Shown here: positions 14,942-60,511 of the stretch, one piece after another
Layout: each line of letters begins with the position of its first letter
Numbering within the stretch: position 1 is the stretch's first letter
Source: Heterotrichella gracilis
Taxonomy: Eukaryota; Sar; Xanthophyceae; Tribonematales; Xanthonemataceae
Reading direction: 5' to 3'
Length of the DNA: 64,000 nucleotides
NCBI GenBank assembly: GCA_032358255.1
Contig: JAULBX010002999.1
Span: 79,178-143,177, forward strand
Position numbers and translations under genes: made by a program
Notes under the pieces: model-generated
Database searches by the model: none
Told to the model about the DNA's origin: nothing
What the model saw: the letters and a program-made list of their open reading frames with translations, nothing else

Positions 14942-14989
14942 GTGCATGAGTACCAGGTGCCCGCTCGGCCTGCCCTCAAGGGAAGGCAG
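14942..14989 (-). repeat. Partial copy of the last GNAT exon
   Basis: CATGAGTACCAGGTGCCCGC and the following bases match 15139-15182 within the last GNAT exon (CATGAGTACCAGGCGCACGT). On the gene strand this is the coding segment just before the LVLMLR end of the acetyltransferase fold, copied into its 3' flank. Confidence 0.75.
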
Positions 14990-15101
14990 TCGAGCTTGGA
15001 TGCACCCCCTTCCCGCACACCCACACCCACCAGCAGCACCGCCAGCAACAACATCATCACTCCCATTGCCACCACCGCCACCACTACCCTAAACCCCAAC
15101 C

Positions 15102-17642
15102 CTAGATCCCAAAACAGGTTCCTGTCACCCACCTGCGCAGCATGAGTACCAGGCGCACGTTCGGCCTGCCCTCCAGGAATCGCACCCAGTTTGGCTCAGC
15201 CTTGACCACTCTGTACCCCCGCTGCAGGTACATCTGGTAGGCTGCCACGTTGGTGGGGTCCACATGCAGGGCCATGGAGCGACAGCCCCATTGGGTGGCA
15301 ACCTGTGCATGTGGGGGGTTTTGGTGGTGGAGTGGAGCCAGTGGGGTGTGGTGATGGTGGTGACAGTGGCGGTACATAGGCGCTTGCATACCAAGATCCA
15401 TCACAAGCCTGATACGCAACATTGCACCACAGACCCGCTGAAAATGTACATTTCAACATTACATAATATGTCCCCACATCTCCTCAGCCCGCAGCAGCAG
15501 CTCCTGCCCAGCCCAAACCCTGTACATAAACCGTAAACCCTAGACCATAAACATGACCCCACACCTCCTCAGCGCGGCGCAGCAGCTTCCGCCCCACCCC
15601 CTGCCACCGGGCCCAGGGGACAACCGCCAAATTGGCCATGTAGGCGGTGTGTGCAAGTGCATAGGTTGCGCTCCACACCAAGAATCACCAGGAGACCTGA
15701 TTTGCAAATGTGCACACCAGACCCGCTGAAAATGTTCACCTGAACTCAATATAATATAACATGCCCCCGCACCTCCTCAGCCCGCAGCAGCAGCTCCCGC
15801 CCCACCCCCTGCCGCCGGGCCCAGGGGGCCACCGCCAAGTTGGCCATGTAGGCTGTGTGCTTGCGCGCCACCATGCGGGTGGTGCCCCCTGCCCGGACCA
15901 CCCGCGGGGGCACGTGCTGGGCCAAGGAGTCCACAGTGATGGACCCTAGTAGGGTTCTGGACTGCTGCTCAAGGCGCTCCTGGGAGAGGAAAACATATAA
16001 TTACATAAAATAATGAAGAAGTGCACTCCACGCAGCCTGTCCTTGCACAATCGCGTTGCTTAATGAAGAGAATTTAGCGAGCAGAAGGGCACTGGGAGGG
16101 GAATGGAGCTGGGTCCTGGATATGATGTAGTGCAGTATTTGGCGATGACTCATGATGGAGGGGGTTGCCAAGAGACCCTAAACTTCAAACCCTAAACTTC
16201 AAACCCTAACTAAACCTGACCCATGGCCCCACCCACCTGCAGTTGCCCCGAGAGCAGCAGCTGCAACCAGGCAGGCACCTCATTTGCAATGTCCCTACCG
16301 TCCACTTACCACGCCATGCATCCACCATGCCATGCAATGCCACAATTCTCACCCACCTGCAATTGACCCGAGAGCAGCAGCTGCAACCAGCCAGGCACCT
16401 CAGGACTGGCCTCCCCCTCCTCCTCCTCCCCACTGTGCGCCAGCAGGCAGGCAAAGCGCCCTTGGTCCTGCCGCCGCTCATACTCCTGACCTGCACAACA
16501 CACGTCAAGATGTGTTTATTAGATGTATACCTTTTGTCATGGCGTGTGCGCCGGATGAGCAGCCATGGCCAAAATGGGAGGTAAGGTGTGAGGCATGGAC
16601 TGTGTGCAATGCCACCAAGGAGAGACCAAACCCTAACCCTAACGCCAAACCCTACACCCTAATGCTCGACAGGGGCTGAGCAGCGGCCCTGGTCGTGAAT
16701 CAAAGTGACGCCGCTCGTACTCCCGCCCTGCCTCCACACACATGCACCCTGCTTCCTCTCCGCACTGTATATATTCCCTACCACGCTCCCTCAGCTGCCA
16801 ATACCTCCTCTCCACCCAGAACCCTAAACAAAACAGCGATTTTGCGCTAGCTGCAAATCTGCCATCTACAACGCTAGATCCTAAACACAATGGCGCATTC
16901 ATTGGGGGTCGAGAAGTAGTGTGCACCTATTTCCAGCGCCATCACCCTGTCCACCCGCAGGATCTTCTCCATGAAGGGCCCCGAGGTGGGGTAGAACGCC
17001 TGGCAGTGCAGCTCCGCCACATTCCAGTAGTCGCGCTTGGAGGCCACCCGGATGGACACGCCCTGTGTGCGGGGCACTGCCTCTGATGTGGCCGAGGGCA
17101 GGGAAGCTCCTAGGCTGCTGGCTACGGGGCGGAAGCTGGCGCAGCGCCTGCGTCCTGGATGATATGAATAATTCAGGCATGCAGCTCACCACAACACATT
17201 TTTTTCTTCAATTTCTTGTGGTGGAGGGCAGGGATGCCCCAGGCTGCTTGATACAGGGCGACAAAGGTGCTACCGCCTGCGGCCTGGATGCACAGGTTGT
17301 TGGTCCTAGTGGGCTGCATAAGTAGGTTGTTGGTTGTGGTGGGTTGCATAAACAAGCCCTATACGTGGGTTGCCAAGGGCGGAGGTTCGATTGAGCAGGG
17401 TGGCGCGTTGTGGCGCCTGCGCCCTGCGTGCACAAACATGGGTTTGGTTGGTACACATGGGTTTGGCGTGAGTACCCAGGTTCATAAGGCTGTCTCCTTT
17501 GGTTCCTACACGAGCTACTTACTCAACTACGTGCAGCCAGAGTCTGGCCTAGGCATGCATGCAGCTGGACCCTACCTGTGGGGCTGGTGGGTTGAGACAG
17601 CTGGTAGAGTCCCTTGCAGGTGCACAGCAGCCTGTGCAGCAT
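15102..17642 (-). CDS. GNAT-family N-acetyltransferase, probably organelle-targeted
   Basis: Acetyl-CoA-dependent acetyltransferase of the GNAT fold; the substrate is unknown. Exons on the minus strand: 17576-17642, 16927-17154, 16357-16490, 15773-15979 and 15102-15302. The core is clear: IRVASKRDYWNVAELHCQAF at the start of the fold, the acetyl-CoA loop ARRQGVGRELLLRAEE (Q/RxxGxG), then ALHVDPTNVAAYQMYLQRGY and LVLMLRR. The first exon (MLHRLLCTCKGLYQLSQ) was chosen because its donor phase fits exon 2; the joined N-terminus is rich in Ser, Ala and Arg and looks like a transit peptide. The last exon is read through to a stop at 15102, but a GT after LMLR at 15131-15132 could instead start another intron, so both ends are less certain than the middle. 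Related plant GNATs are plastid enzymes. Three exons have edge copies nearby. Confidence 0.78.
15478..15660 (-). repeat. Two extra copies of the GNAT acetyl-CoA-loop exon 3' end
   Basis: 15562-15660 repeats about 100 bases of exon 15773-15979: it codes AYMANLAVVPWARWQGVGRK and keeps the GT donor after the GAG. 15478-15511 is a shorter copy of the same edge. The longer copy preserves the reading frame through the acetyl-CoA-binding loop with several substitutions. Confidence 0.85.
16232..16290 (-). repeat. Copy of GNAT exon 3 3' end
   Basis: CACCTGCAGTTGCCCCGAGAGC and flanking bases match 16352-16402, coding WLQLLLSGQLQ followed by the donor. Another copy, of the exon's 5' end (EYERR), lies at about 16700-16730. 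Confidence 0.8.
17209..17300 (-). repeat. Copy of GNAT exon 2 5' half
   Basis: The block from TGTGGTGGAGGGCAGGGATG to GGCCTGGATGCACAGG parallels 17088-17164, the transit-peptide-like part of exon 2 with its acceptor. It is diverged but collinear. Confidence 0.65.
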
Positions 17643-19361
17643 CCCACGGAGCAGTGAGTATGTACTTACACAGCACAGCAGCACAGGTGGCACCTGCCAC
17701 TCCACACCCAGCACCCACAACTGCAAAACATGTACGCTAGGCGATGCTACCCATCATACTGTGCAAAGCAGTAGACAATCGTTCCAGTGAAGGACAAGCA
17801 GACAACCCACAGGCAAACAGGCATGGGCGCATATCAAATCCCCGCCATTCTACTGCCAGCTAGACTCAAAGATCCCACCTTGATGTGCCCAATACCGTGT
17901 TGCCCCCCTGCGCCATCATGCTCCCACGGACTAGCATCGTGGTCTTCCTCAAAAGTGCTTAAAACAGGTGGTTCTGCAACTAGTCAGACACGGTAGGACG
18001 TGGGTGTTGTTTTCAAGGCCTGTGACGCGACAATTTCCTCGATAGGTCCAAAGGTGGGTTGAGGTAGGATGCCTCGACATGGGGCCCCGCATCCGCTGAG
18101 TTTGCACACCGGGGGTTCTGTCATCACCCGTGTACGTGTGCTGGGTTTGTTAGGTTGACAGAACGTCAGTTGGGAGGTTTAGATTGAAGCCATAGAGGCC
18201 TCTGTCCTGTATCGTAACTTGAGGAATGGCTCACCAATCGTCTTATCCTGACCTCCTCGTTTCTCGACGTTATATTGTTGCTCCTGACTCCACCTCAGTG
18301 TTTTCGACTGTGCCCACTTTAAGTCCACGTTAACGGGTGTCCTTCGGACCCCAGTTGCAGTAATCGTCCACAGCACTCTGCAACCCACTCCTGCTACCAC
18401 GCCCCGTAACGCTCGCGCCCGTCGCATGTAGCCTATAGCTAAGGACCGCACACCATGAAGACAGCCCGCAAGTGGCTCTGCGCCATGGAGCCGGGCGTGG
18501 AGGACGAGGCCCCGGCTCAGCCCGCAACCAAGGTGAGAGTGGTCGAGTCCCACCTGGGAATACGACCCTGGTGCAGCCGCCGGCCTGCACATGACTCACT
18601 GGAAGGAGTCTACACCATTTAACCTACCGGGGTTCCCGCTTTGTCACTATTAGGACCCCCTACAAAATTCAAACGTGTATGTCTTTTCGGGTGGTTCAAT
18701 ACCCAGTCCTGCGCACCAGGATGTGTTACGGCGAACAAGTGGCGAGCATGCAAGTGCCTGCGACCCTTTTGTGCGATACTTAGCCGGGTCGCGTATGCAT
18801 GCTATTTCCGATGCCTGCCATGAGCCCTCCCTAGCTAGACACACACGTCCGGGGCTCGTCGCCCTCCTCGGCTTCCCTATTGCTTAATGTTCTAGCTAGA
18901 GACGAAGACGTCATGACCAACTTGGTGTTTCACGTGGGCAGAATTTGTGATACGTGTGCCGTGCCCCCTCGCTAGAACGGTACTTGGCATAGGAAGGTAC
19001 AAGGTTTGCCGCCAACTTGAGCTTCCCAAGGACGTCACCCACACACCTCGGAGGCTTCGATACCTTGCGGGCATCTAGTTCAGAGGGTTGTGGCGAACCT
19101 CTGGTTGTGCGACTTGCCGTGATTATGATGTCTTTGTAGTGCCCTCAACCCTGGTCCCAACCCTAAACCCTAAATAGCAGCAACGCGAATGCATGGCCGC
19201 ATCAGGCGCTTCTGCCTGTCACGCGTGGCAATAGCATTGGGTATAAGCAGAGGCACGGTCAACCAATCACCCCCACCGTACCCCACCCCACCCCACCCCA
19301 CACCTGTACCCCCCCACCCACACACCCACCACATGCACCCACCCACCCCTCCCTTGTGCAG
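17643..19361. other. Intergenic region between GNAT and NOS, unassigned
   Basis: This must hold the GNAT promoter and the promoter and first exon(s) of the NOS gene, which I could not identify. From about 18000 to 19100 the sequence looks different from its surroundings, with almost no CCCTAAA-type tracts. It includes a short inverted repeat (GTTCTGTCA at 18115-18123, TGACAGAAC at 18156-18164). A small ORF starting MKTARKWLCAMEPGVEDE at about 18454 resembles nothing I know. A C-rich tract (19265-19345, CCCCACCCCACC-like) directly precedes the first supported NOS exon and could be its polypyrimidine tract. Confidence 0.4.
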
Positions 19362-22300
19362 AGCCATGACCAGCCCACCACCAGCCCAGTGGCCCCACCA
19401 ACCAGCAATGGGGTACACAAAGAGGAGGTTGTTGCTCAAACATGCCCAGCAGCAGCAACCACACCCTCCACGCCCGCTGGCCGCTGCCCCTTCATGCACG
19501 GCAGCGTTGGGGTGCACCCCTTCCCAGGTGCGCCACTCAGGTTCAGGGTTCCCAAGTGGGCACCACTTGCACCTTCAAAGACCCTGCTCTAGGTTTGGCA
19601 GAACCCACTTAAAAACCCTAAACCCTGCGCCGTGCAGGCTACGTGCGCGGGAAGCACCCCGAGATCTGCAAGCACCGTAAACCCTTAACCCTAAACCCTT
19701 AACCCTAAACCCTAAACCCTGTGCCGCGCAGGCTACGTGCATGGGAAGCACCCGGAGATCTGCAAGCACGGCTGCACCCCAGACCCTGCGCTAGGGTTTG
19801 ATGAAACCCCGAAGGAGACCCTCATCAGGGAGGCCATGGAGTACCAGGTAAACCCCAAACCTTAAAACCCTAAACCCTAAAACCGAAATTCAAAGCATGT
19901 GCTCTGACAGGCTGGCACCTGCACATGTGTGTAGAGCATGCTGGCCTGCCATGCGACGTGCGGATTACTGTCAGTTGGATTGGATTGTCCATTCAAACCT
20001 GGCAGTACTCGTGGGATTGCATGACGCATCAGCAGTGATCATGAGATGGTTCAGTCAACAGCGTTCAGCACATACTGTATCCTCAAACAGACACCTGTTG
20101 CTTGGCTGTCATGCTACTTGGTTTTTTTTCTTCCGCTGGTGGGAAATGGCCAATGTGCTGCCTCGCATTGTTAATGAAATCCCCAACCTCTTCATGCAGC
20201 GGCTGTACCACACCGAGAACGGCACCCCAAGCGAGGAGGCGGAGGCGCGCAAGGCTGCTGTGCTGGCACAAATCGAGGCCACCGGCACCTACAGCCACAC
20301 CTATGACGAGCTGCAGTATGGGGCGCGCGTGGCATGGCGCAACGCACCAAAGTGCGCGAACCGCAAGGTGGGTGGGCCATATACCCTACATGCTGAAACC
20401 CTTGTGCTACCCTTACTCTCAGTCGGTACACCCTAGTCCCTTGTCGCATTTCTGCACAGGCCATGAAGGCCCTTCCCCCCAAAAAAACGTAGATGAAATT
20501 GTCTAATCCCATGCCTTTGTGCAGTTTTGGGACGTGATCAAGGTGTTGGACAAGCGCGATGTGGACAGCCCCGAGGCAATGTTCGAGGCATGCCTGGACC
20601 ATTTGGACAAGGCGAATGCAAGCGGGGTCACAGAGGCGTTCATCACGGTGGGTGGCTAGGGTTTTGGGAGTCAGGGTTAGGGTTTCATGTGCAGGGTGTA
20701 GGTTGTGGGGTCAAGGAGGCATTTATCTTGGTGGGTTTAGGGTTTCGGGTTTGTGGCGTAGCATGTAGGGTTTGAGGCCTGCCTGGACCAATTGGAGAAG
20801 GCAAATGCAAGCGGGATCACCGAGGCATTCATCACGGTGGGTGGCAAGGGCTTATGGGCTAGGGTTTGCAGGCTAGGGTTTAGGGGTGAAGGATGTAGGG
20901 GTGTCTGGACGCATGTTTGTGAATCCTAAAGTGTGAGGGCAAGGAGTGTTCAAGCAAAGCTAGAGCCAGGGACGGCTGGCCATGCCTTTCGCAATACCTG
21001 TAGATCTTGTAGGGTATCAAACACAAGCTGTTTGTGGTGAAATGTGTTGGAAATACGGCCATTAATGCCATATATGGGTGGTCAATAATGTTTTTATTTC
21101 CCACTCCCCCAGGTGTTTCCCCCTCAACACCCACTGACCAAGGCTGACACGTGCACGTTGTTATTGTTGGGATTATGCACAATGTGATCGATGATGTTTG
21201 ATGAACCATAATTTACTTAACGGGTACTGCCACGCTGCTCCCTCAGGTTTTTCCCCCTCAGCACCCGCTAACCAAGGCTGGCGGTGCGCGTGTGTGGAAC
21301 AGCCAGCTGCTCAGATATGCGGGGCACAGGCAGGACGACATGTAAGCAAAAACTCTAAACCCAAACCCTGCAAATTAAACCCTAAGCCCTTACAAGACAG
21401 CTGCTCAGATATGCAGGGCACAGGCAGGACGACATGTAAGCAAACCCCTAAACTCTGCAATTAAAACCCTAAACCCTAAGTCAGCCAGCTGCCCAGATAT
21501 GCGGGGCACAGGCAGGACGACATGTGCGCAAACCATAAACCCTAAATTTGGATCAGCCACCTGCTGCCATGGACTGGGGCACAGGCTATCCCAGGGATGT
21601 GCGCAAGTCGGGTCATTGGCAATGTTATGGCCATGTATATGTGTGCATGTGCCATGCAATGCATACATGGCATGTGGATGAATATGTGAGCACGCATGCA
21701 GGCCCTTGCATCATGTATGCACGCGTTGCCAAGCAGAATGTATCTAGCAACAAAGGTGTCATCACTGGCAAAACTCAGGTGGGCAACCCCCTGAGATGGC
21801 GTTCATGGAACCCTTAATCCCTAACCTTAAATGTGCATCATGTTTGCGCAGGTCCATCCTGGGGGATCCTTCTGAGGTTGCCTTCACGGAAATGCTCAAG
21901 ACCGAGTATGGGTGGAAGCCGATAGGTAAATGGACGGGAAAACCTGCTCAATACGTTGCACAGCAGGAATAGGCGCGATGTGTGCCTGTTGCCTGCACCC
22001 ATGCAGGGAAGGCTTCGTGTCTTATTGCATTGTTGAAAATCACTGTGCAACTCCTTCCTTCCTTCCATTCATCCTTTTTCCGGCGTTTTCGTTTTGTTTC
22101 GTTTCTGATCTTGGACGGGCCTGCCTGGCGCGTGAAGAATGCTGACCTCCTGGCTGTGAAAATGCTGGAATGCACGTGTCCAATTGAAAGCTAATTCCCA
22201 GTTTGGTGTGGGTGTGCAGGTGGCGTGCGTCGCTTCCAGATCATGCCGCTCCTGCTGCAGATCGCACCTGACCAGCCGCCAAAGCTGTTCAACGTGCCAA

Positions 22301-25300
22301 GGTATGGTAGCTACATCATGTTTATTTTACATCATTATGTAATGTTGTTGTCATTATTATCGTTAGGACATTAATAAGGGTGTGGGGTACGGTGTGGAGG
22401 GTGTGCTGAATGGGGTGCAGGGACCAAGCTGGGTGTATGGTGTGGTGTTGTTCACAGGATGCGATACAATTGTATTTGATCTATTTGGGTGAAAACAGCC
22501 TTTATGCTGCAGGCAGTACCATGGCGAGGTCCCACTGGTCCACCCCACACACTCGTGGTTTTCCGAGCTGGGGCTGCGCTGGTATGGAATCCCTGCGGTG
22601 AGTGGCGACAGTAGACTCTAAACCCTAAACTGTAAACACGCGCGTGGATCCCAGCATCGGCATCCCAGTCAACTGCTGCTTTGTCTGGGCAATGCCCAAT
22701 CGCCCGTTTCCAGATTGTACTGCTGGATAGGAATTGCCCCCCACTTTCTAATTAACATCTATCTATTATTAATGTACACACTCATTGCTTTCCCTGTGTC
22801 AGGTGAGCAACATGGAGATTACCCTGGGAGGAATCCTGTACATCGGCATACCCTTCAACCGCCCATGTCCAGATCATACTGCTGGATAGAATTGCCCCCC
22901 CCTTTCTAAATGACATCTGTATTTTATCCATCTACATACTCATCGCTTTTTTTTGTGCCAGGTGAGCAACATGGAGATCACGCTGGGAGGGATCCTGTAC
23001 ACCGGCATACCCTTTAACGGGTGGTACGCAGACTCCGAGATTGTGCGCAACATGACTGACGAGTCGAGGTTCAACATGCTGCCGGTGGTGGCAGGCAAGC
23101 TGGGGTACTCACTCACCGACAACGCATCCCTGTGGCGCGATGCAGCGCTCAATGTCATCAACGAGGTGCGGAAGCCCTAAAGCAAGCTCTAAAGCTCTGA
23201 ACCCTAAAATGGCTGGCGACGGTTGCGAGCTGTTGGAGGTGTTGAGAATATGCATTGCCAGTTGCACATTGCATCGTGTCCACCTGCACGCTGACTCAAG
23301 TGGGCTTGAATTTATAATTGTCTAAATATTCCAATTTGTTTCCCACCCGCAGGCCTTCCTGTTTATTTATTTATCTATCCATTTATCAATTTTTCAAACC
23401 AATTATTCCTTATTTCGTCTACAGGCCATCCTGCACAGCTTCCGGCAGGCGTGCGTGGGCATGGTGGACCACCACACCCTCATCCAGGGTTTCTGGGAGT
23501 GGTACTGGAAGGAGCGCAGGGTGCGGGGATACGTGGCGGGCAACTGGAAGTGGTAAGCGTGGACCCCTAAACCCTGAAAACCCTGGACCGTAAATGTGGC
23601 AAGGGTTGGAAACGACCCTGGAAAAATCTAAACCATGTGCCTGACAGGACGCTGAAAGATGCGCCCTGGAAATTCCTTCCCCCTCCCCCCCATAGGGTCG
23701 CCTGCCCCGCATTGCTGCCCCCCCATCCCCCCAACCGTGCCTGGGTCTGAACATCCCCGCCATAAACCTAAAACCCTAATAACCCTAAAACTCTTCCCCT
23801 TCCCGCAATGTCATCCTCCCTATCGCTGCCTCCACCTCCCCTTGCTATCTGGGATTGAACATTGCTGCCCTAAATCCTAAGACCTAGACCCTAAAACCCT
23901 ACTCTTCCCTGCAGGGTCATCCCCCCTATCGCTGCCTCCACCTCCCCTTGCTACCTGGGGCTGAACAAGATGACAGAGTACACGATCAAGGTAAGAAAAA
24001 CCTAACATAAACCCTAACCCTTGGAACCCTAAACCCTAAACATTGCTACCTGGGGCTGAACAAGATGATAGAGTACACGATCAAGGTGAGGAAAACCCTA
24101 ACATACACCCTAACCCTAGCATCCATAAACCCTAAACCTTGCTACCTGGGGCTGTACAAAATGACAAATTACAAGCTCAAGGTGAGAAAAACCCTAAACC
24201 CTAAACCTAGGAACCCTATGTTCAAGCCTTGCGCCAGTCAGCCTTGACTTGGCTGCCTATACCACTGCTGCAAAAGCCTTCAAGAAGCCCCTAGAGAGCC
24301 CGTCAACCCCTGCAACAACTCTGAAGTACCCCTTCTCCTTGCAGCCCGCATACCTGTATGCCCCCGGCTGGTCCAACTACCGCCGCAAGCTGCTGGGGCC
24401 CGCCGCCAAGCGGCCTCCCCGCCGCTGCGTTGCCCTCAACCCCTACGTGCTGCGATTCCTGGTCTACCTGAAGAGGCGCGCGGCGGCCCGCAAGGCCAAG
24501 GTGCTTGTGCTGTTTGCCACTGTTTCGGGGACAGCCAAGCGGTTTGCGCAGCAGGTGTGGAAAACCCTTTGCCCTCAAAATACCCTACACTCTAACAACC
24601 CTACAGAATGGGTAGCTACCTGTGGTTTGGGCAGTGCAGCCAGGTTAGCAGGTAGGGAGAACCATATAACCCGTCCTGGTATACCTCAAGCGCCGCGCAG
24701 CAGCCCGCAAGGCCAATTGTATAAATACTGTTCCTTTTTTGAGGCTGTCTGACATCGCTAGCAGGGAGCAGCACATGGCCATGGAGGCTAACCACACCTA
24801 CCCAACCCACGTCCAATCCATGGCCTATTAGAACTGTAGAAAAACCTTTGAATCCGTTTACAGTCGTCGCTAAACAGGGCATTCGTTCTTTCTTTGCAGC
24901 TGTCTGACATTGCCAGTAAGGAGCTGCATGTGGTGCTCCTGGATATGGAGGCGTGGGACCCAGATTCCAACCACATCTCGGAGGCCAAGCAAGCAGATGT
25001 GGTCCTGCTGGTCACATCCACCTATGGCAGCGGGGCGCCGCCACCCGCGGCCACACCGTACGTATAAAACCCTAACACCCTGAAACTCTAGATGTCAAAC
25101 CCTAAACCCTAAGCAAGCAGATTGGTGCAGCTGTTCACATCCACATATGGCAGCGGGGCGCCGCCACCCGCAGCCACACCGTACGTGAAACCCTGGAAAC
25201 CTAAAACCCTGAAGTGTAACCCCAAGCAAGCGGATGTGGTCCTTCTGTGCGTATCCAAATATGGCAGCGCAGCCACACCATGCGTATTAAAACCCTGACA

Positions 25301-28300
25301 CTGTGGAGCCCAAACCCTAGATCTCAAACCCTAAACCGTAAGCAAGCGGATGTGGATCTGCTGTGACGTCCACCTATGGCACCGGGGCGCCGCCACCTGC
25401 AGCCACACCGTACGTACCTTAAGGCCCGGAAACCATACCTCTGGAAACCCTTAAGCCCTACGCGGTGCCGTACAACCCTGAAGGCCCAACCCTTGAAACC
25501 CCGGAGGCCTACGCAGCCGCAGTGTGACATCATAGCGTTTCTACACCCTCGAACCCTGAAGCTCAAAACCCAAATCCCTGGAACATGCAAATGTGCAGGG
25601 TCAAGCATGCAGCTACAATAACACGCGCATCTTACACTTCCGTCTCTTTGCGCAGCTTCCTGCTGGGGTTGCTGGCTCAGCAGCAAGTCATTGGCGCCAC
25701 CAAGCGGCCACTGGCGCAGAAACCCTCAACTCTACTACAGAACACACACATACATCCCACGGTCGGTATCTGTGCATGTAAAGGCATTGTGATTCATGCA
25801 TTGCAACGTCCATCCCCCGTGTAATTATAATTGCCATTTCTCTGCGCAGCTTCCTGCGCTGGCTAGCGGCCCAGCAGCAAGTCAAGGGCGACACCAAGCG
25901 GCCTGTGGCACAAATACCCCAAAAACCTTACCCAGAAACCCTAATTTCCAAATCCCTCAAATTGTATACTTCCACACTTACTATCCTGTGTCGCTGTGCA
26001 GCTTCCTGCGCTGGCTAGCAGCCCAGCAGCAAGTCACGGGCGACACCAAGCGGCCACTGGCGCAGAAGCCCTTTTCGGTGTTTGGGGTCGGCAGCAGCTC
26101 CTACCCCCGCTTCTGCGCTGCTGCTGAGCTCATGAACTCAATGATGCTGGCGGTGGGGGCGAGGCAGCTCACACCCACATTCAAAGGTGAGCTGCGGGGG
26201 AGAATCCAGGGTCCTGGACTGTTTTGCCTTCTCGATTTAGGGGGTTTAGGTTCGAGGGTGTAGAGTTTTTGGGGTTGGTAGCTGCCAGTACCCTTGCTTC
26301 TGTGCGGCTGCTGAGCTCACGAACTCAATGGCGGTGGCGGTGGGGGCAAGGCAGCTCACACCCAGGTTCAAAGGTGCGTTGTGGGGAGATTCTAGTCCTC
26401 GCCTTCTTAATTATTGAACATGCATCCGAAGATGACTGCCAGAACAGCCAGTCGTTCGCATGCGGCGCAAGCACTTCATCCAAAGCATAGTTACGCACCG
26501 TTTTGATGCTTTTGTGCGACATGAGGTTCATACCACTCTGTGCAAAACCCTAAGCTAGGGTTTCTCCCCCCACAGGTGACTCTCTGGGAGGCCGCGAGAG
26601 CACCTTCAAGTCGTGGCTCACGCAGGTGGTACGCAACATGCGCACGCAGGTAAACCGTAATTCCCTAACATCAAAACCCTAATCCGCACGCAGCTTCTGG
26701 GTGGTGGGGTCTGTACCACGACGTTTGGTGTGCGCGCGTGCTTCCCCGCAGAAGCCACGCATAGCCTCCACCCTGCACCCTACACCATCGCCCCAACCCT
26801 GATCATCCTTGACCTTCTATGCGATAGGTGCCCTTAAGGGTGAGCCATACCACCATAACCCCCTTCCCCTGCAGGGTCTGGTGCCACCTGCCTGCACCGC
26901 GCTGCTTGCCCGCATGGAGGGAGAGGAGGGGTCTGTCAACCCGCCATTCGAGCACATGTGGAACGTGGTGCAGCTGGCAGGTGGGGAACCTTACATCGCA
27001 ACCCTGAGACCCTATAACAAAACCCTAATCATTGAATCCTAGTCCCTTTGAGCGCATGTGGAGCGTGTTGCAGCAGGCAGGTGGGAATCCTTAATCTGAA
27101 ACCCTACAACCCTGGAGCCTACAGCCCTCCACGGTGAAGTTCTGCAAGGCCATGTGATCATGGTACAAGCTGCCAGGTGGAATACCCTGCAATCCCAACC
27201 CCACACCTCTGTTAACTTGTGTCCATTGTTTCCAAATGTCCTGAGCTGACAACCTAAACCCTAAAAAAAAGCCCCGGTTTTTTATACCGCTTCTCATTTC
27301 CATTCCCCTTGTTTGAAGCGCCTGGCTTGCGACCCCCACCCTTGATGGCTGCTCCCGCCATGCGACGCACATTTCCTGCTGCCAGTCCCCCATAATCCAA
27401 ACATGTATTCGCTTTACTGCATAGCCTTGTTTGTTGTTTGAAGTGTAAACCCAACAGCCTTAACCCTAAACCCTGCACTCCAAACCCACCGTGTCCTTCT
27501 GTGTCCAGGCTTGAAGCGCCTGGCCCGCGACCCGCACTTCATGTCTGCTCCCGTGATAGACGCCCAGCACCTGCTGGCGGATCACAGTCATGATACTATG
27601 TCACAGCATAAACCCTGAATCCTACTCTCCAAATCCCAAACCTCATCCAGTCGAATACTCACATTGTCCAGGCCATTGAGCTGATACAAAAGATGCAAGA
27701 AGGATGCAATGTGCTTTTGCAGGGTTGAAGCGGCTGGCCCGCGACCCGCACTTCATGTCCGCTCCCGTGATAGACGCACAGCACCTGCTGACAGACCCTA
27801 AGGACCCTAACCGGCGCACCACGCTCATCAAGATCGACCTCAAGGAGCTCAGCTCAAGATGCGCGGCGGTGTACGAGTCAGGCAAGGAACAAAACCCTAG
27901 AACCCTAGATCCTAACCTTAAATCAAGATCGACCTCAAGGAGCTCAGCTCAAGATGCACGGCGGTGTACGAGTCAGGCAAGGAAACAAAACCCTACACAA
28001 ATATACAAACCCCTGCACATGACACACAGGGCTGCGGCCAGCGGTGTATGAACCAGGCAAGGCATTGACACCCCAAACCCTACACCAAATCCTACACCCT
28101 TCAATAAATAGCACATTGGCCAATACTCCAAGCCTGAAGCCAATACACCTCAATCTCAGCTCAACATGCGCTCAACGCCTCGTCCTCCACGTACAGAATC
28201 TGGCAATGAAAGTACATTCTAGTTCTATGAATCATCTCTCCCCGCCGTGCAAGCAACCATCTGGGTGTGATGCCCGACTACTCGGTCCAGGTAACCGATG

Positions 28301-31300
28301 AGCAGCTGTGCACATTTCCTGCCTGGGCGGGGAAGTGGCCAGCCTGGACCTACATTCGATATGGAACCGAAAACCCTCAAATTTCAGCTCTAGGATTCAA
28401 GGGAAGCCTCCGAACAACGTTAATATCGACGACTATCTGGGTATGTTGCCAGGGCAACAAGATGGGCCCAAAATCTCAAACTGTAGTTGGTAAAATCCAA
28501 GGAAAGCCTCCAAACAACGTCAAATTTATCCACTTTTCTGCAGGCGACCACCTGGGTGTGATGCCCGACAACAGTGCCCAGGTGAGCGAGGAGCAGCCGG
28601 CCGCATTTGCGCGCTGCGTGGGGGTGGCCAACCTCGACCAACTATTCAACATGGAACCAAAAACCTCAAAATTTCAACCCAAAAATCCAAGGAACAAAAC
28701 CAAAACAATGTCTAAATCATGCCCCTTTTCTGCAGGCGACCACCTGGGTGTGATGCCCGACAACACCGCCCAAGTGAGCGAGGAGCAGCTGGCCGAGTTT
28801 GCGTGCTGCGTGGGGGTGGCCAACCTTGACGAGCCGTTTGACATGGAGCCCCTGCATGTGGAGGAAGGGGAACTGCCCCCAGCCAAGCCCTTCCCGCTGC
28901 CGCAGACCTACCGCACCATTTTCGGAGGTGCGCATGCGCAATTCTGATTTGCTGGAAACCAGAATTAGTAGTACGGGGGGGTTGTTAGTAGTAAGGGGGA
29001 GGAAATGACAATGAACATAGGAAAATGAGGGCAGCTGCCCCATGCCAAGCCCTTCCCGCTGCCACCGACCTACCGCACCATATTCGGAGGTGCGCATGCA
29101 TGCGCAATATTCACAAACTTTAAAAAGAGATGCAATCACTGCGTGTGGATGATCACTTTTGGCAGTGTCGAAAGAGGCGTCCCCCAGGCGGAAGCCCTCG
29201 TGCTCTAACCTGTGATACCCTAAAACCCTGACCAGTGGTGTGCGCATGCAGGCTACTTGGCACTGCTGGAGAGCCCTGCCATGAAGGACCTGGCAGCACT
29301 GGCGCAGGTAGGAAACTAGGGTTTATGGTGGCCGCAAGGGTTTTGCCATTAGGGTTTGCAATGAAGGACCTGGCGGCACTGGCGCAGGTAGGGCTGTAGG
29401 GTTGCCGCTAGGGTTCGCCATAAGGGTAAAGCTGTGTTTCACCACAGCATGTCTGCTGATTGAATGACTCAGCTTGCGAAGCTTCCAAGTCATCTATCTA
29501 TTCATTTAACATTTTCATTTTCATTTTTATTTTCTGCAGTATGCCACCGATCCCAGCGAGGCGTCCCATCTCCAGAAGCTGAGCTCGGATGAGGTGATGT
29601 ACTCAACATGGGTGCACGGCCAGGGTGTCAGGTGAGAGCAGAAACCCTAGACCCTTAAACCCTAAACCCTAAGAAGCTTAGGTCGGATGAGGTGATGTAC
29701 TCAACATGGGTGCACGGTTAGGGGGTCAGGTGAGGGCAGAAACCCTAGACCTTTTAACCCATAAACCCTAAAGTGCATGTTGCGGTTGGGGTACATGGGC
29801 AGGGGTTGTGGTGCAATATGCAAGTGACCATGTTGTAATTGCAGTTATAGCTGTGATTGAATCACTTAACTTCAACATCAAATTCAATATGAATACGGTA
29901 GCGATGAAATGATTCATAAACTCACTATATTATGCAGGTGGATCGGCATCTTCCAGGAGTTCCCCTCCCTGATCGACTCCATCCCCCTTGCCGCGCTGCT
30001 GGAGCTCATCCGAGTGATGCACCCCCGCCACTACTCCATCGCTGCCAGCTCCTGGTACTGCGAGAATGAGGTGAGGGAACCCTAACCCTAACCCTAACCT
30101 ATGAAGTTGAACCCTAGATTGCTGTCCTGGTATTGCGAGAATGACGCAGCGTCACTGCTCTGAACCGGGAAATCCGAACCCTCGACCATTACTGGATAGC
30201 ATCCTGTTACTGCGACGGTGAATGGACCCCGCTAATTTAGCGGGTTTAGCGGGTTTAGCGGCTAAACCCGAACTTGAGAAATGGCTGACTACGGTGAACT
30301 AACTTTAGCTGCTGTGCCGTCGCAGGTTCACCTGATGGTTGGCAAGCTGACCTACAAGCTGCCTAATGGCCAGGAGCGTGGTGGCGTGTGCAGTACCTAC
30401 CTGTGCAACCTCAAGGCGGGGGACACAGTGCGGTTCCACATTCTGAAGGTGGGTATAATCCCTTCTTTGGGTCTAAGCCATAAACCGTAAAACAGAGGTC
30501 AAGAACTGGCACGTGATGATGGTGGCAGAGGGAACCGGGCTGACACCCATGCACACCCACATGTGTGCGATCTGGTGTTCAAGGACTGGCTGCACAGCTG
30601 TTACTGCATTTTGTATTAGATTGTGTTCTGTACGCGCACAGGTGCCCTCCTTCCGCCTGCCGCTGAACGCGCGCGGGCCTGTGATGATGGTGGCAGCAGG
30701 GACCGGGCTGGTACCCCATTATGGCCCCATACAAAATACCTCAAAATCACACAGAAATGTGGTCCACGGCCTTTGCAAATCGCATGTTACCCTTCAAGTT
30801 GTGTAATGTGTCTGTTGCAGGTGCCCTCCTTCCGCCTGCCGCTGAACGCGCGTGGGCCTGTGATGATGGTGGCAGCGGGGACCGGGCTGGCCCCCATGCG
30901 GGGATTCCTGCAGCACCGCGCGGCGCTCAAGGCGGAGGGGCCTGTGGGTCCCATCGCGCTCTTCTTTGGCTGCAGGAGCCAGAAGGACATGCTGTGCAGG
31001 TGGGGTCTCAAAATGTATACTAGGGTTTCGGGTCTGGTGGCTGCAGTATGATGTGCTGTTCAGATGGGGGCAGGGTGTGGGGCTTCGGTGCATTACCTAA
31101 TGGCGTTAGGTAGCGGGTTACCCTATAGTAGCCTATATTCTAAACCCTAAACCCTATTCAATGTTCCCAGGGAGGAGCTGGACGCCTTTTCTGCTGCGGG
31201 GGACATCCAGCACCTGGTGGTGTGCTACTCAAGGGAGCCGGGCATGCAAAAGCAGTATGTGCAGGTGGGTGCCTGCTGGCTGACCCTAAACCCTAAATTG

Positions 31301-34300
31301 TAAGCCTCTACCCAAACCTAGTATGTGCTACTCAAGGGAGCCGGGCACGCAAAAGCAGTATGTGCAGGTGGGTGCTGCTAATTGACCCTAAACCCTAAAC
31401 CCTGAACCCTGTGTGCTACTCAAGGGCACCGGGGTGACCACGCAGTATGTGCAGGTGGGCTGCTGTGGAAGCCTTTCTCGCCAGTACGCTGGTAATGGTG
31501 CCTGGATTATCCTTGGTGTATTCACTTGTTGTGATGTGCTTTTGCAACTATGCTTGTTACCGTATCTGCGACAAAGTTTGCAACTGTGCGCTTAAGGACC
31601 TAGTGGCAGCCGTCGCAGATCCTGTAAAGGAGTTGCTTGTAATGGATCAATCCTAAAAATGGAGGTGTGGCGCAATTGAAATTGTAACATAACTCCATTA
31701 TGTATCCCCCCCTGCAGGACCTGGTGGCGGCCAATGCGGACCTTGTGAAGGAGCTGCTTGTAATGACCACTCCGAATTTTGATAATGATCATGATCTCAA
31801 ATTGTTTTCCCCCTGCAGGACCTGGTGGCCGCCAATGCGGATCTTGTGAAGGAGCTCCTGAGCCCCCTCAACGCACACGTGTACATCTGCGGGGACAGCA
31901 ACATGTCGCACGCGGTGTCGGGGGCAATCGCGGGAATCATGGGTGCGTGGGCAGATTCAGCGTTTTAGGGTTTGAAACATTATTGCATGCATTCATTATG
32001 CCGCATAATTTATGCGTGGAGGGATGGCAGACTATAGAGTTGATGTAGGTTCTGTATATTCAATAAATTCCTTGTCCTCTTTTGGGATTCTGCTGCAGGC
32101 AGCGCTGAGCAGAGCCGCGTGGCCAAATGTACTGAATATTCCGACCGTTATTGTACAGATCAACAGATTATATATATAAAAATGGTGTTATAATATCCAA
32201 CAATTTGCCTCCAGGGAGCGCCGAGCTGAGCCGCATGGCCACCGAGGGGAGGGTTCACGAGGACGTGTTTGGAGCAACGGTCACTACTGAGACGCACAGC
32301 AACGTAGCCAAGCTGGCGGGGCAGCAAGCTGAGATGATCAAGCTAGCGGACTTTGCACAGGCAGACGATGAAACAAGTAAGGAAAAATCCCATGGAAAAT
32401 TGATTGGATTTGGATCTGGCTTGGATTGGCGCACATGTAGGAGTGGCTACCTACTTGACTGACTACCTGCTATGACCCTCACTACTCATCAAATCAACCT
32501 ACCTTCATCCCTACCTGCCTAAAGTTGCTTTTTGCCTCCGTTTCAGGGCTCGAGAAGGCGCTGTCCGAGGGCGCTGACGCCACCCAGGTGGATGTCGATG
32601 GCAACACGCTGCTGCATCTGGCGGCAGCCAGCGGGGCGGCCAAGGCGTGCAAGGTAGGGTTTGGGGCGTAGGGAGTTGTCGGGTTTAAGGGTTTGAGGTT
32701 AGGAATCAGGGCTTAGGATGTTATCAGGTTTGGGGTATAGGGTTTAGGGTTTGACCAACCTGGCCTGGCAATTCTGCTGCGCAGATGGCCATGAGAGTGG
32801 CTGTTAAATCGCTATTTTACAGTGGGTGGGCAGATGCACGAAATCGGAGCGAATTGCTTCTGAACCAAGGGCTTTTGCTTCTGCAGGTACTCATAGCTGC
32901 GGGCGTGTCTGTGAATGCGGTCAACAATTACAACCTGACCCCTCTGGCGGTGGCCACACTGGCTGGGCAGCAGGCGGTGGTGGAGGTGCTGCAGGGGGCC
33001 AAGGCGCTGCTGAGCTCGCGCATGCACAGCAACTTCTACCCTCTCCACGTGGCGGCGTTCACAGGTGTGAAGCGCGGCTACTCTTCGTCTTTAATGCTTT
33101 TATTGGCCCCTGCTGTTCCTATTGGTTGCCCTGCCTGAGAAGCATGATAAAAGAAACCCTTTTCGTTGGTTTGCATTGAATTCCAGGTGACACTGCGGTG
33201 GATTCTCGGTGCACCGCATACACTTCCGAACAGGCAGCATTGCGCCACTTCAGGCTGTGATGGTGGAAAAGCCAACGCTAGAACAAGCAGTCAAAAAAGA
33301 ACGTTATATATCAAAATCAAAGTCACATTTGAGTCTGTTCACTGTCTTTTTGCACAGGTGACATTGCGGCGCTGGAGACCCTTCTGGGCCAGGGCAGCGA
33401 CCCCGATCAGAGGGATTATTTTGGATCGACACCACTCCAAGCCGCGGCAACCATCGGCAACCTTGCGGCCGCACAAGTGCTGGTCAAGGGGGGCGCGGCA
33501 CCCAACATCTCAGACAGGCACGTGCAAGACCCTAATCCTTGACTGCAAGCCCTTGACCCTACGGTAACCATGTCTTAAACCTGAACCCTACATGGGTCTA
33601 TATTGAATCCCATGAACCCTTATTGAACCCTCGCTCGACCTGGAGGTAAGCAATCGGGGGGCTGCGCCATGGGGCGCTGGTTGAGGCGTGCCCAGCCAAA
33701 CGTTGCAGACAGGCCAACATTTACCCTAAACCAAAACACACCACCATTACACACTAAACGCTAGGTGGGGCAAACATTGCAGTCAGGTATGACAACACAG
33801 CTTTAGGATTCGTAGCTGTCAACCCAGATCGCTCGTGTTGCGTGTACATACTTAGGTGCATTCTCCATCCCCAGCACTTTGTTTTTCTACCTTACCTACA
33901 TACCGCTATATTTTAATCACACCTTGACGATTTCAATTTCTGTATTATCCAGGTGGGGCCACACGCCCCTGCAGGCAGCCCTGCTCTACCAGCACCACCA
34001 ATTGGTGGATTTCCTCAAGGGGGTGGGTGCCAAGCTGACCGTGAGCGACACCGACTTTGGGATGGTCCTGCCCCAGCTGGAGGGGTTCAAGGGGGCAGGG
34101 GGCGGAGGGGAGGGGGGAGGGGACGCGGGTGCTGCGTTAACGGTGGAGCGCATCGCAATGGTGCAGGCCAGGTGAGTTGATGGTGTAAAGTTGTTTTGGT
34201 TTGGTTTGTGGTGCACTACTGTCAGACTTGGATTATGGCTGCTTGGCGCAAGGCAAATTGGAGTGGGGGTTGCTGTGGCTGATGCTTTGTGTAGCTATCT

Positions 34301-36548
34301 ACGTACCTGGCCTTGCGATTGCACAGGCACGTTGCCAGGGAAGAAGGTGTGGGGTGTAGGGTTTAAAATGTGCTAGGAATGGTAAACGACTGAAGAATGC
34401 ATTGAACACGATCTGCCCAATGGTTGATTACCACCGTATGTACAGCACCGTGTTAAAAGGAGGGTGCAGGATTTGGCTGCAATGACCCAAGCCCAGTGCC
34501 ACTCACTGATCTTTACTCGCTGTCCAGTTGGTGCTGGCTTGCCTCGGAGAGCTACCCTGCAGGCATGCAAGCCCAGCTGGACGAGCATGGTGTCAGGCTG
34601 TTCCACAATTACTCGAATTTACTGGCCCAAAACCCTCCAGTCGAATATATATATTCTACTTTTGATCAGCGAATAATTCCATGTGTTTATATATTTTTTG
34701 TGCTTTATTTTCAGTTGGAGCTGGCTTGCTTCAGAGAGCTACCCCGCAGGCATGCAAGCCCAGCTGGAGGAGCATGGAGTCAGGCTGTTCCACAACCTGT
34801 TCGAGATAGCACCCTCTGCGCTCAAGCTGTTCAAATTCAACCTGACAGAGGATGGCAAGGTGGTGGATGATGAGGTGAGGACAAAACATAGCTGGCTGTT
34901 CTCAGAAGCAAAGTGCTTGGTAATCAAACGATTGGATGGGGGTTTATCGCATCGCCTGTCGTAAAGCATACTTCTGGAGAAGGGAAAGTGATAGTGTTCA
35001 ACAGCCCTGTTTGAGCTAGTGCCTGCTGCACTGAAGCTGTTCAAATTCAACTTGGCCGAGGATGGCAAGGTGGTGGATGACGAGGTGAGGAGGAGGGGAG
35101 GGCGGAAGGAGGGAAGGCAGGGGAGATGCGCTGTGGGTTGCAGGGCTGTTTATTTTGGGTACCCATTTTTGGGGGTTAAGCCCAGCATCGAATCCACTCA
35201 CCTGCCTGCGATAGAGCCCGCACCCCTCATTCTGTGCATACTGGGGGATCCATCAACAAAACGCCATGCATTCCAGTCCCCTAAAAGCCGCTGCCAGGGT
35301 ACCAGCCACACGCGCAAGCGCGTGTGTATGCACACATTTGCTGAGTGTTTGTTGTTGTGCGTGGTGCAGGTGCTTCGGAAGCATGCCCTGCAGGTCATGC
35401 GCACTGTGGGGGCAGTCATTGGCCAGCTCAACGACCTGGACTCGCTGCTGCCAAAGATCCAGGTAAAACCCTAAAACCCTACAAAACCCGAAACAGTGGG
35501 TGCAGTCATTGGCCAGCTCAACAACCTGGACTCGCTGCTACCAAAGGTCCAGGTACATCCCTACAAACCCTACAAAACCCTAAACGGTGGGGGCAGTCAT
35601 TGGCCAGCTCAACGACCTAGACTCGCTGCTGCCAAATATCCAGGTAAAACCCTAAAACCCTACAAAACCCTACAAAACCCTAAACAGTGGGTGCAGTCAT
35701 TGGCCAGCTCAACGACCTGGACTTGCTGCTGCCAAAGATCCAGGTAAAACCCTGAAACCTCTAATTTTCAGCATGACCTGGCCTTGCACACAAAAGCGGC
35801 TGTAGCAGTAACGCCAAGCCACTGATAAGATTCGCCACGATGCCCATGACTGGTTATGGAATTTGCCCTCGTTGTCACCCTCGAACCTGGTACTCAAGGC
35901 CTACTCCTTGAGCAGGTGCCTTGTTGAGAGCCATACACCCAGCGGAGCTCTGCTAGGTGGGTATAAATTAACAACCATGATACTACTGTTTGTTCTTGTG
36001 AAGCGGAAATGAGATCATTTCTCCTCTTCTGCAGCGCCTGGCCGAGCGCCACGTGGGGTACCGTGTGGAGCTTGTGCACTACGAGATCCTGGGGAGGGCG
36101 CTGCTGGGCACCATGGAACAGGTGCGCCTTAAGGATTTAGGATTGAGGGTTTAATATGTGGGCTATTGGATACTTGAGGGCGCTGCTGGGCACAACGGGT
36201 GCGCCTTTGGGTTTAGGGTTTTGGGTATGCTTGTGCGCGATGAGATTCTGGGGAGGGCGCTGCTGGGCACCACGGAACAGGTGCGGCGGCAGGTTGGTAG
36301 AAACTGCGGGGATGTACCATCATGTAATAGGCTACCTTGATCAGGATGTCCCAATACCATATTATTTCATTTGCCTGTGTCATGACTACAATATTTGGTA
36401 TCATTTTTGCCTGCGGCAGGTGCTTGGAATGAAGTGGGAGGATGACGAGCGCACCGCATGGACTGCAGTCATAGCGCTCATCATACACGCTGCCACCAAG
36501 GTGTACGAGGATGCGTCCAACAAGGCTGGCGGGACCGTAGCAGCCTGA
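19362..36548 (+). CDS. NOS: Nitric oxide synthase with C-terminal ankyrin repeats and globin domain
   Basis: Makes NO and citrulline from L-arginine, O2 and NADPH. Thirty-four exons join in phase to 4497 nt, 1498 residues plus stop. The 5' end is incomplete: exon 1 (19362) begins at a phase-0 acceptor and an upstream exon must supply the ATG. Domain order by residue: haem oxygenase about 60-440, calmodulin-type linker about 450-485, FMN flavodoxin about 486-650, FAD/NADPH reductase about 650-1120, ankyrin repeats about 1122-1320, globin about 1330-1498. Key residues: haem-ligand Cys146 in AWRNAPKC, arginine-binding Glu329 in [11 protein letters not shown], pterin-site Trp in NWKWVIPP, NADPH loop [11 protein letters not shown]. 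The reductase-to-ankyrin junction is supported by splice phase (32376 to 32547, A+GG = Arg). Two introns use GC donors (27882, 33518). Nearly every intron holds copies of neighbouring exon edges. Domain entries below give the exons. Confidence 0.94.
19633..19678 (+). repeat. Copy of NOS exon 2 5' end
   Basis: GTGCAGGCTACGTGCGCGGG through AAGCAC repeats the acceptor and first 40 or so bases of exon 19732-19847, then stops in CCCTTAACCCTAAACCC tracts. It retains an AG acceptor but no donor. Confidence 0.9.
20772..20838 (+). repeat. Copy of NOS exon 4 3' end with donor
   Basis: GCCTGCCTGGACCAATTGGA through ATCACGGTGGGTGG matches 20588-20654 with a few changes, including the GT donor. Both copies are followed by TAGGGTTT-like intron sequence. 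Confidence 0.9.
21106..21607 (+). repeat. Edge copies of NOS exon 5
   Basis: Upstream of the exon, 21106-21165 copies its acceptor and 5' end (CAGGTGTTTCCCCCTCAACA). Downstream, about 21400-21440, 21482-21530 and a diverged 21553-21607 copy its 3' end, AGATATGCGGGGCACAGGCA, with the GACAT/GT donor. CCCTAAACC tracts separate the downstream copies. The real exon is 21247-21341. Confidence 0.88.
22690..22895 (+). repeat. Copy of NOS exon 9 5' end plus its upstream intron
   Basis: GTGAGCAACATGGAGATTAC (from 22802) reproduces the start of exon 22962-23165 with its AG acceptor. The preceding intron stretch (TACTGCTGGATAG, CCCCCC, TTTCTAA, ACATCT) also occurs before the real exon. This is therefore a tandem duplication of about 160 bp spanning the acceptor. 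Confidence 0.9.
23673..24187 (+). repeat. Four edge copies around NOS exon 11
   Basis: Exon 23915-23990 is flanked by diverged upstream copies at about 23690-23757 and 23800-23868 (TCGCTGCCTCCACCTCCCCT). Two downstream copies of its 3' end with donor lie at 24042-24092 and 24140-24187 (TTGCTACCTGGGGCTGAACA type). CCCTAAACCC tracts lie between them. Confidence 0.88.
24662..25412 (+). repeat. Edge copies of NOS exons 12 and 13
   Basis: 24670-24716 copies the [10 protein letters not shown] part of exon 12. 24738-24788 copies the 5' end of exon 13 (CTGTCTGACATCGCTAGCAG). After exon 13, 25110-25186, 25222-25286 and 25344-25412 copy its 3' end (ACATATGGCAGCGGGGCGCC type, with GTACGT donor), each followed by AAACCCT-like tracts. 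Confidence 0.88.
25650..26374 (+). repeat. Edge copies of NOS exon 14
   Basis: Two upstream copies (25650-25731 and 25846-25912) carry the acceptor and the start CTTCCTGCGCTGGCTAGCGG. A downstream copy (about 26288-26374) carries the 3' part, GCTGCTGAGCTCACGAACTC, ending in a GT donor. The real exon is 26002-26186. Confidence 0.88.
27046..28062 (+). repeat. Edge copies of NOS exons 16 and 17
   Basis: 27046-27085 and a weak 27122-27178 copy the 3' end of exon 16. 27504-27582 copies the 5' end of exon 17 (AAGCGCCTGGCCCGCGACCC) and keeps an acceptor. 27919-27983 and 28034-28062 copy its 3' end with the unusual GC donor (GAGTCAG/GCAAGG). Confidence 0.85.
28256..28660 (+). repeat. Two upstream copies of NOS exon 18 5' end
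   Basis: 28540-28655 is a near-perfect copy of exon 28736-28927 from its acceptor through FDMEP, reading [18 protein letters not shown]. 28256-28345 is more diverged. A 3' copy (29030-29100) follows the real exon. CAAAATTTCA/AACCCT intron sequence is shared between the units. Confidence 0.9.
29358..29735 (+). repeat. Copies of NOS exon 19 and 20 3' ends
   Basis: 29358-29394 repeats ATGAAGGACCTGGCGGCACT through the CAG/GTAGG donor of exon 19. 29672-29735 repeats the VMYSTWVHG end of exon 20 with its GTGAGG donor, but an in-frame TAG replaces the Gln codon. Confidence 0.88.
30505..30713 (+). repeat. Copies of the NOS NADPH-loop exon 5' end
   Basis: 30640-30713 is almost identical to the start of exon 30821-30999 (acceptor plus [20 protein letters not shown]). 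30505-30552 is a shorter copy around GTGATGATGGTGGCAGAGGG. A diverged 3' copy lies at about 31035-31085. Confidence 0.9.
31318..31766 (+). repeat. Edge copies of NOS exons 24 and 25
   Basis: 31318-31372 and 31408-31456 copy the [14 protein letters not shown] end of exon 31171-31264 with its donor. 31595-31645 and 31716-31766 copy the [13 protein letters not shown] start of exon 31819-31942, both ending in the same TGTAATG variant, so one derives from the other. Confidence 0.9.
32547..34080 (+). other. NOS: Ankyrin-repeat segment of the NOS fusion
   Basis: Exons 32547-32653, 32887-33064, 33358-33517 and most of 33953-34171. About four repeats can be read, with consensus pieces [68 protein letters not shown] and [17 protein letters not shown] Gly-rich linker follows (34096-34128). 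Ankyrin repeats usually bind proteins; the partner here is unknown. Confidence 0.9.
34526..35095 (+). repeat. Copies flanking the first full globin exon
   Basis: 34526-34610 copies the 5' half of exon 34715-34874 (TCGGAGAGCTACCCTGCAGG). 35005-35095 copies its 3' half (GCACTGAAGCTGTTCAAATT through GATGACGAG/GTGAGG). Together the two partial copies nearly rebuild a second globin exon around the real one. Confidence 0.9.
35370..35744 (+). repeat. Globin distal-His exon 3' end repeated four times
   Basis: The real exon 35370-35462 is followed by three copies at about 35494-35553, 35586-35643 and 35686-35744. Each reads GTCATTGGCCAGCTCAACGA-like sequence to a CAG/GTA donor and is separated by AAACCCTACAAAACCCTAAA tracts. 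The copies are nearly identical, so they are recent or homogenised. They lack the segment with the distal histidine. Confidence 0.95.
36172..36290 (+). repeat. Two copies of the proximal-His exon 3' end
   Basis: 36236-36290 repeats GAGATTCTGGGGAGGGCGCT through the CAG/GTGCGG donor of exon 36035-36121. 36172-36200 is a shorter copy of GGGCGCTGCTGGGCACAA. Neither includes the histidine codon. Confidence 0.88.
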
Positions 36549-51069: not shown

Positions 51070-51095
51070 TCACTCCTGATTACTGGTGGCCACCG

Positions 51096-53859: not shown

Positions 53860-60511
<6,652 letters not shown>

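Follow-up and report, generated by a model that had tools for sequence, protein, structure and literature searches.

What kind of protein results when a nitric oxide synthase (NOS) is joined through ankyrin repeats to a globin, and would such a globin dispose of the nitric oxide (NO) made by its own chain? The question is raised by a locus on contig JAULBX010002999.1 of Heterotrichella gracilis (assembly GCA_032358255.1), within the 64,000-nucleotide stretch (positions 79,178 to 143,177, forward strand) called the window here. The original prediction had joined 34 exons into one frame of 1498 codons encoding a NOS oxygenase, a flavin mononucleotide (FMN) domain, a module for flavin adenine dinucleotide (FAD) and reduced nicotinamide adenine dinucleotide phosphate (NADPH), ankyrin repeats and a globin. 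The evidence is best explained by a real and apparently intact nuclear gene of a eukaryote, judged from the sequence most likely a green alga, whose product adds one more well-resolved example to the NOS-ankyrin-globin proteins known from KnNOS2 of Klebsormidium nitens and is not a new architecture. Taken jointly, this architecture and an NO dioxygenase role as the main function of the globin make a reading that we hold to be somewhat better than an even bet. The features of the predicted gene, in window positions, are as follows.

18455-18532, + strand, exon 1 (predicted): ATG and 26 codons (MKTARKWLCAMEPG...), donor GTGAGA, phase 0, in frame with 19362
19362-19847, + strand, exons 2-3: N-terminal segment with Cys92-X3-Cys96, an algal-type zinc region
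19732-24554, + strand, exons 3-13: NOS oxygenase, residues 109-471, with heme Cys172, Val330, Glu355 and Trp440
24345-24554, + strand, exon 13: basic, hydrophobic calmodulin-like linker, residues 491-517, aligned to the nNOS linker
24345-26649, + strand, exons 13-16: FMN (flavodoxin) domain (520-663), in which the autoinhibitory insert of nNOS is missing
27723-30448, + strand, exons 18-23: FAD-binding domain, residues 724-945; exon 18 has a GC donor
30821-31942, + strand, exons 24-26: NADPH-binding domain, residues 977-1085
32215-32376, + strand, exon 27: last part of the reductase with Phe1112, a short tail and the first residues of the ankyrin domain
32547-34171, + strand, exons 28-31: ankyrin repeats (matches 1145 to 1327) and Gly-rich linker; exon 30 has a GC donor
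34715-36548, + strand, exons 32-35: globin (match 1392-1506; Phe1394, Phe1408, distal His1427, proximal His1459) and stop codon
19528-36419, + strand, introns with exon copies and heptamers: 22 of 34 with direct copies of the adjoining exon, 30 of 34 with telomere-type heptamers

Joining the 34 exons from 19362 to 36548 gave 4497 nucleotides, that is, 1498 sense codons and one stop codon in a single frame, with 47 and 27 stops in the two alternative frames. The boundaries of these exons were set by eye so as to hold the frame open, and its openness is therefore partly by construction; independent checks come from the Pfam matches and from the excess of third-position changes in the intronic copies of exons. 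The single open frame first proposed could be rebuilt, and it was incomplete at its 5' end, where a start exon, predicted at 18455-18532, was missing. Position 19362 is a splice acceptor and the first exon of the 34-exon model has no in-frame start codon; a start at ATG 19366, which is out of frame, and one at 19362, which holds no ATG, were both rejected. The region 17600-19340 was scanned for first exons that stay open from an ATG to a GT donor of one of seven permitted forms, and 7 candidates were obtained. Candidates 19189 and 19333 were dropped, as they correspond to another frame of exon 2, and 18455 was preferred because of its GTGAGA donor; the third-position GC content of this exon is 0.885, over 26 codons only. 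The alternatives 18485 (a later ATG in the same exon), 17660, 18069 and 18913 may also act as first exons. The extended predicted model covers 18455-36548 on the forward strand with 35 exons and 1524 residues, and its 34 introns, of median length 348.5 bp, have AG at 34 of 34 acceptors, GT at 32 donors and GC at the two others, which are the GC-AG introns at 27882 (end of exon 18) and 33518 (end of exon 30).

Comparison of the predicted protein with Pfam bore out the proposed domain order, which from N- to C-terminus reads NO_synthase (residues 109-471, E 1.3e-117), Flavodoxin_1 (520-663, E 2.7e-23), FAD_binding_1 (724-945, E 4.2e-34), NAD_binding_1 (977-1085, E 2.8e-18), ankyrin repeats (best Ank_2 stretch 1236-1327, E 4.7e-25; best Ank stretch 1165-1197) and Globin (1392-1506, E 1.4e-18). 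No Pfam match with E up to 0.01 was found N-terminal to residue 109, so that a C2-like domain or globin preceding the oxygenase, as in SyNOS from Synechococcus PCC 7335, was not detected there; the globin comes last. Among solved structures, residues 1-1134 had their best matches in nNOS (8t1j, 1.3e-152) and full-length SyNOS (9q05, 3.9e-138), and the ankyrin part resembled designed and natural ankyrin proteins. When a fragment starting at residue 1109 was compared with Pfam, an Ank_2 match began at residue 1145, and the junction of exons 27 and 28 falls within codon 1148, across an intron of 170 bp with agreeing phases. As this junction lies inside the ankyrin domain, one polypeptide is the natural reading, and the earlier proposal of one gene with a single predicted chain is upheld. 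A short tail from Phe1112 to 1144 separates the reductase from the C-terminal extension (residues 1145-1524, 380 residues), which contains the ankyrin repeats and then the globin.

The residues expected of a NOS were found in the oxygenase and the reductase, their roles in binding heme, arginine, pterin, flavins and NADPH being those usual in the family. Heme Cys172 in AWRNAPKC, Glu355 in GWYADSE, Arg358, and Trp440 in NWKW are present, and in the aligned parts Cys172 with the Trp of AWRN, Glu355, Arg358 and Trp440 are conserved with respect to nNOS and SyNOS. The heme-thiolate Cys, the arginine Glu and the pterin Arg/Trp that mark the family are thus in place, and the FMN, FAD and NADPH modules follow in the family order, with the FMN motif, the FAD motifs PRHYS and GGVCSTY, the NADPH motif, and Phe1112 at the flavin-shielding place, all of them likewise conserved in the aligned parts. 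At the gate position the alignment shows Val330, the same residue as in nNOS, whereas SyNOS has Ile, which at this position in iNOS is reported to slow NO release (PMC6104048). The linker 491-517 is basic and hydrophobic, aligns with the calmodulin site of nNOS and is a putative calmodulin-binding segment; the autoinhibitory insert of nNOS is missing, 13 residues lying between two matched stretches as compared with 48 in nNOS. A zinc region of the Cys-X3-Cys type and an insertion within the helical lariat are reported as traits of algal NOSs (PMC8728061). The predicted protein has Cys92-X3-Cys96 and, relative to both nNOS and SyNOS, two extra residues at CYLGLNKM in the lariat region; we infer that these two residues correspond to the published insert, so that both traits of NOSs from the green algal lineage were found.

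For the globin, the best relatives among solved structures were neuroglobin (2e-12), the Roadblock-fused haemoglobin-like protein 3wfw of bacterial origin (2.5e-12) and plant non-symbiotic haemoglobin (7.3e-11). Aligned to neuroglobin, the domain has His1427 in the distal and His1459 in the proximal position, so that both histidines expected of a globin of the NOS-ankyrin-globin kind are kept, and Phe1408 and Phe1394 align with the phenylalanines at CD1 and B10, respectively. By eye, the introns of the globin part lie at neither of the positions B12.2 and G7.0 of animal and plant globins.

Relatives of the NOS were also sought in bacterial and viral contigs. At least 597 stretches of bacterial genome contigs were matched, at least 581 of which encode a relative, and the best 80 were kept; 25 pattern matches were obtained in viral contigs and 0 of these encode a relative. 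A tree of 83 rows was made from the best 80 bacterial relatives, SyNOS, nNOS and the protein from the window, with algal NOSs not included. In it, the window protein sits on a branch of length 2.2 with unsure placement and no close grouping with SyNOS, and owing to the long branch and the composition of the tree it is uninformative on algal descent. One relative, from Nostoc sp. MG11 (L031:1345-5808), is a SyNOS-like NOS in a single open frame of 1488 codons from stop to stop, with globin-like stretches N-terminal to the oxygenase. Four others (L001, L003, L006 and L032; three proteobacterial, one from Sericytochromatia) have the NOS oxygenase at the C-terminal end of frames of 1087-1103 codons from stop to stop, preceded by parts that by eye look like cyclic-nucleotide-binding and FNR-type reductase-like domains.

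It had been claimed that an arrangement with the globin last and ankyrin repeats between was not known before. This does not hold, and the reading as a novel architecture was rejected, as the C-terminal NOS-ankyrin-globin layout was published in 2021 for other algae, including K. nitens KnNOS2 (GAQ90485.1), with further NOS-globins from Gonium pectorale, Chlamydomonas incerta, C. schloesseri, Edaphochlamys debaryana, Chlorokybus atmophyticus and Mesostigma viride, and with the argument that algal NOS-globins possibly had independent origins (PMC8728061). The KnNOS2 kind has a C-terminal extension of about 380 residues, ankyrin then globin, and the predicted protein has one of 380 residues, in agreement with this description; Cys-X3-Cys and a lariat insert it has in common with algal NOSs (PMC8728061). 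The N-terminal position of the globin in SyNOS was stated correctly in the original prediction (PMC12922734, PMC6104048), and the statement that land plants lack a canonical NOS agrees with PMC8728061, according to which no homologue of mammalian NOS is known in sequenced land plants. SyNOS (PDB 9q05) and the predicted protein have NOS, diflavin reductase and globin in one chain; they differ in that SyNOS has a C2-like domain, an N-terminal globin, no calmodulin-binding linker and Ile as gate residue (PMC6104048, PMC12922734). OtNOS from Ostreococcus tauri and KnNOS1 have the canonical algal NOS core in common with the predicted protein, whereas neither ankyrin repeats nor a globin are described for them in the sources available. 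Mammalian nNOS, iNOS and eNOS also contain the core domains, with residues and Val gate alike in nNOS. They have no globin, and the predicted protein is set apart by its Cys-X3-Cys and by the absence of an autoinhibitory insert like that of nNOS. Flavohaemoglobin (Hmp) has, as here, a globin and a flavin reductase in one chain, but no NOS oxygenase; in Hmp the globin comes first and there is no FMN domain.

How might such a protein work? Electrons would flow from NADPH through FAD and FMN to the NOS heme, where arginine would be converted to citrulline and NO, as in NOSs with the same residues; that the protein has NOS activity is, from knowledge of the family, very probable. The C-terminal globin would bind O2 and NO and convert part of the NO to nitrate, being itself reduced by the FAD/NADPH module of the same protein. 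Some 5-6 ankyrin repeats, as counted by eye, would tether the globin where other NOSs have a regulatory tail at their end, and the overall effect would be to tune the balance between NO signal and nitrate. That the ankyrin repeats act as spacer or docking arm is a guess. Four roles had first been proposed for the globin: conversion of NO to nitrate, O2 sensing, gating of NO release and uptake of electrons from the reductase. Of these possible roles the first and the last have a precedent in SyNOS, in which the globin is reported to be an NO dioxygenase that most likely receives its electrons, once a large movement has taken place, from the FNR (FAD/NADPH) module (PMC12922734). By analogy with SyNOS, an NO dioxygenase role of the present globin, taken by itself, has an even chance of being right.

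Several points weigh against this proposal. The present protein is known from DNA sequence alone, and no activity of KnNOS2 is reported in the portion of PMC8728061 available. The loop that follows the heme Cys reads CANRKFW as compared with CVGRIQW in nNOS and CIGRIQW in SyNOS. Identity of the globin to a globin-like stretch in the SyNOS-like Nostoc protein is only 19% over 148 columns (E 0.003), and no meaningful match to another stretch of that protein was obtained (E 0.33). Because the globin shows so little identity and stands at the opposite end, the SyNOS mechanism may not carry over; the low similarity also points to, and does not prove, a recruitment of this globin separate from that in SyNOS. 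Finally, a hexacoordinate globin, possibly a poor dioxygenase, would also fit the distal and proximal His together with the Phe at the B10 place.

The alternative that survives best keeps the same architecture and makes the globin a sensor, so that O2, NO or redox state would move the ankyrin arm and thereby gate NO synthesis. The ankyrin arm stands where the C-terminal tail restrains the flavin domains in other NOSs, the extension starting right after the short tail, and the globin shares both His and a B10-type Phe with neuroglobin. The globin of SyNOS does contact the C-terminal tail of its reductase, but this contact is described as unique to SyNOS (PMC12922734). As the case is built from sequence alone and the NOS globin measured in the sources available, that of SyNOS, is a dioxygenase, a sensor is possible and rather unlikely. 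A bolder proposal would combine both roles: the globin was joined independently of SyNOS, via ankyrin repeats, at the very site of the tail that restrains electron flow in other NOSs, and one chain makes nitrate from arginine and is gated by the O2/NO state of its own globin. This we advance tentatively, as a doubtful possibility. Globins are fused to NOS at opposite ends in cyanobacteria and algae, which suggests that having a globin next to the reductase was selected for more than once, and the matter is relevant to how green algae make and dispose of NO. An intron-resolved NOS-ankyrin-globin with traced cofactor residues is a usable construct for comparing NO with nitrate formation in the presence and absence of the globin, as was done for SyNOS; for the C-terminal kind, no biochemical study was found in a title- and abstract-level search, with most subscription literature outside its scope.

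A different possibility is that the locus yields a NOS that stops near 32400 and, from an internal start or through alternative transcripts, an ankyrin-globin protein as a second product. Met1134 in exon 27, upstream of the ankyrin match, could provide such a start. However, the phases match across the 170-bp intron and the ankyrin domain spans the exon junction. Backward from exon 28, the frame in this intron runs into a stop without passing an ATG, and past the junction Met occurs first at residue 1229, within the repeats. With the same fusion described for KnNOS2 (PMC8728061), two separate products are improbable. Least probable is a decaying locus, or a gene model partly wrong through near-copies of exons, for which 39 exon copies across 22 of 34 introns, two GC donors and by-eye boundaries might speak, but which fits poorly with an open frame of 1524 codons, AG at 34 of 34 acceptors, the third-position bias of changes and the cofactor motifs kept.

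The exon copies deserve attention in their own right, as the structure of the introns is perhaps more surprising than the architecture of the protein. With a threshold of E below 1e-3, 39 direct copies of the adjoining exon were detected in 22 of the 34 introns (for instance 23991-24344, 25058-26001 and 35463-36034), and one match pairs an exon with a non-neighbouring intron. Of the 39 copies, 34 come within five bases of the intron-facing exon edge, on the 5' side in 13 cases and on the 3' side in 21, and the other 5 do not. A splice dinucleotide (GT/GC or AG) stands beside 29 of the 31 copies that reach to within one base of the edge, a pattern that would fit an absorption of short tandem duplications by splicing. 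The copy of exon 18 in an intron (27922-27976) is followed by GC, as is exon 18 itself. Over all 39 copies, mismatches between exon and copy at codon positions 1, 2 and 3 number 46, 50 and 128 of 728, 728 and 722 sites, respectively, and in the globin exons 32-34 they number 9, 5 and 22 (seven copies, 137 codons). This third-position excess supports reading the exons in the present frame; as no intron copies of ankyrin exons 28-31 were found, the test covers the remaining exons only.

The plain reading of the copies is that short tandem duplications are frequent and are tolerated when one end falls in an intron. This reading does not fully explain two observations. The ratio of nonsynonymous to synonymous change (dN/dS) between exon and copy is 0.26, with about 0.5 expected for a constrained exon and a free copy changing at equal rates, and an in-frame stop occurs in 1 of the 39 copies, where rates assumed to be 0.05 to 0.10 predict 3.2 to 5.9 (probability of such a low number 0.15 to 0.008). 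With CpG sites excluded, the difference is 0.16 at fourfold sites, 0.056 at position 1 and 0.053 at position 2, so that CpG decay alone does not explain the pattern. A role of the copies as alternative exons was considered and is thought unlikely, most copies being partial exon edges. Under criteria of 30 bases or more, 75% or more and a distance within 1.5 kb, the whole window contains 50 direct and 0 inverted pairs of local repeats, spaced 80-353 bp apart (median 180 bp).

The introns are also rich in telomere-type heptamers (permutations of CCCTAAA/TTTAGGG), with 389 in 13,519 bp of intron as compared with a mean of 12.8 in 50 plain shuffles, and with 5 in 4,575 bp of exon. At least one heptamer was found in 30 of the 34 introns, the first lying at most 30 bp from the donor in 22 of the 34. 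Such heptamers also occur at 8001-20000 and 48001-64000 of the window, the comparison with shuffles being one of the gene introns only. At the level of titles and abstracts, no description of intronic exon copies together with telomere-like repeats was found in the literature.

Elsewhere in the window, nine pieces were scanned for protein families, and no family was found in 2 of these 9. Pieces of ordinary eukaryotic genes lie at 2339-3094 (- strand), 5673-10550 (+ strand), 42272-42760 (- strand) and 56580-57095 (- strand), and the families found in them are importin-5-like repeats (among other HEAT repeats), WD40 with PFU and PUL (PLAA-like), Memo and class I tRNA synthetase (E and Q type). 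A weak match to a GNAT acetyltransferase, under the curated cut-off, was obtained at 15102-15452 (- strand), with near-copies of coding-looking stretches seen nearby by eye. The stretch 40943-41048 (- strand), 106 bases long, is matched by the tRNA family of Rfam at 57.5 bits and is not called by ARAGORN, perhaps owing to an intron.
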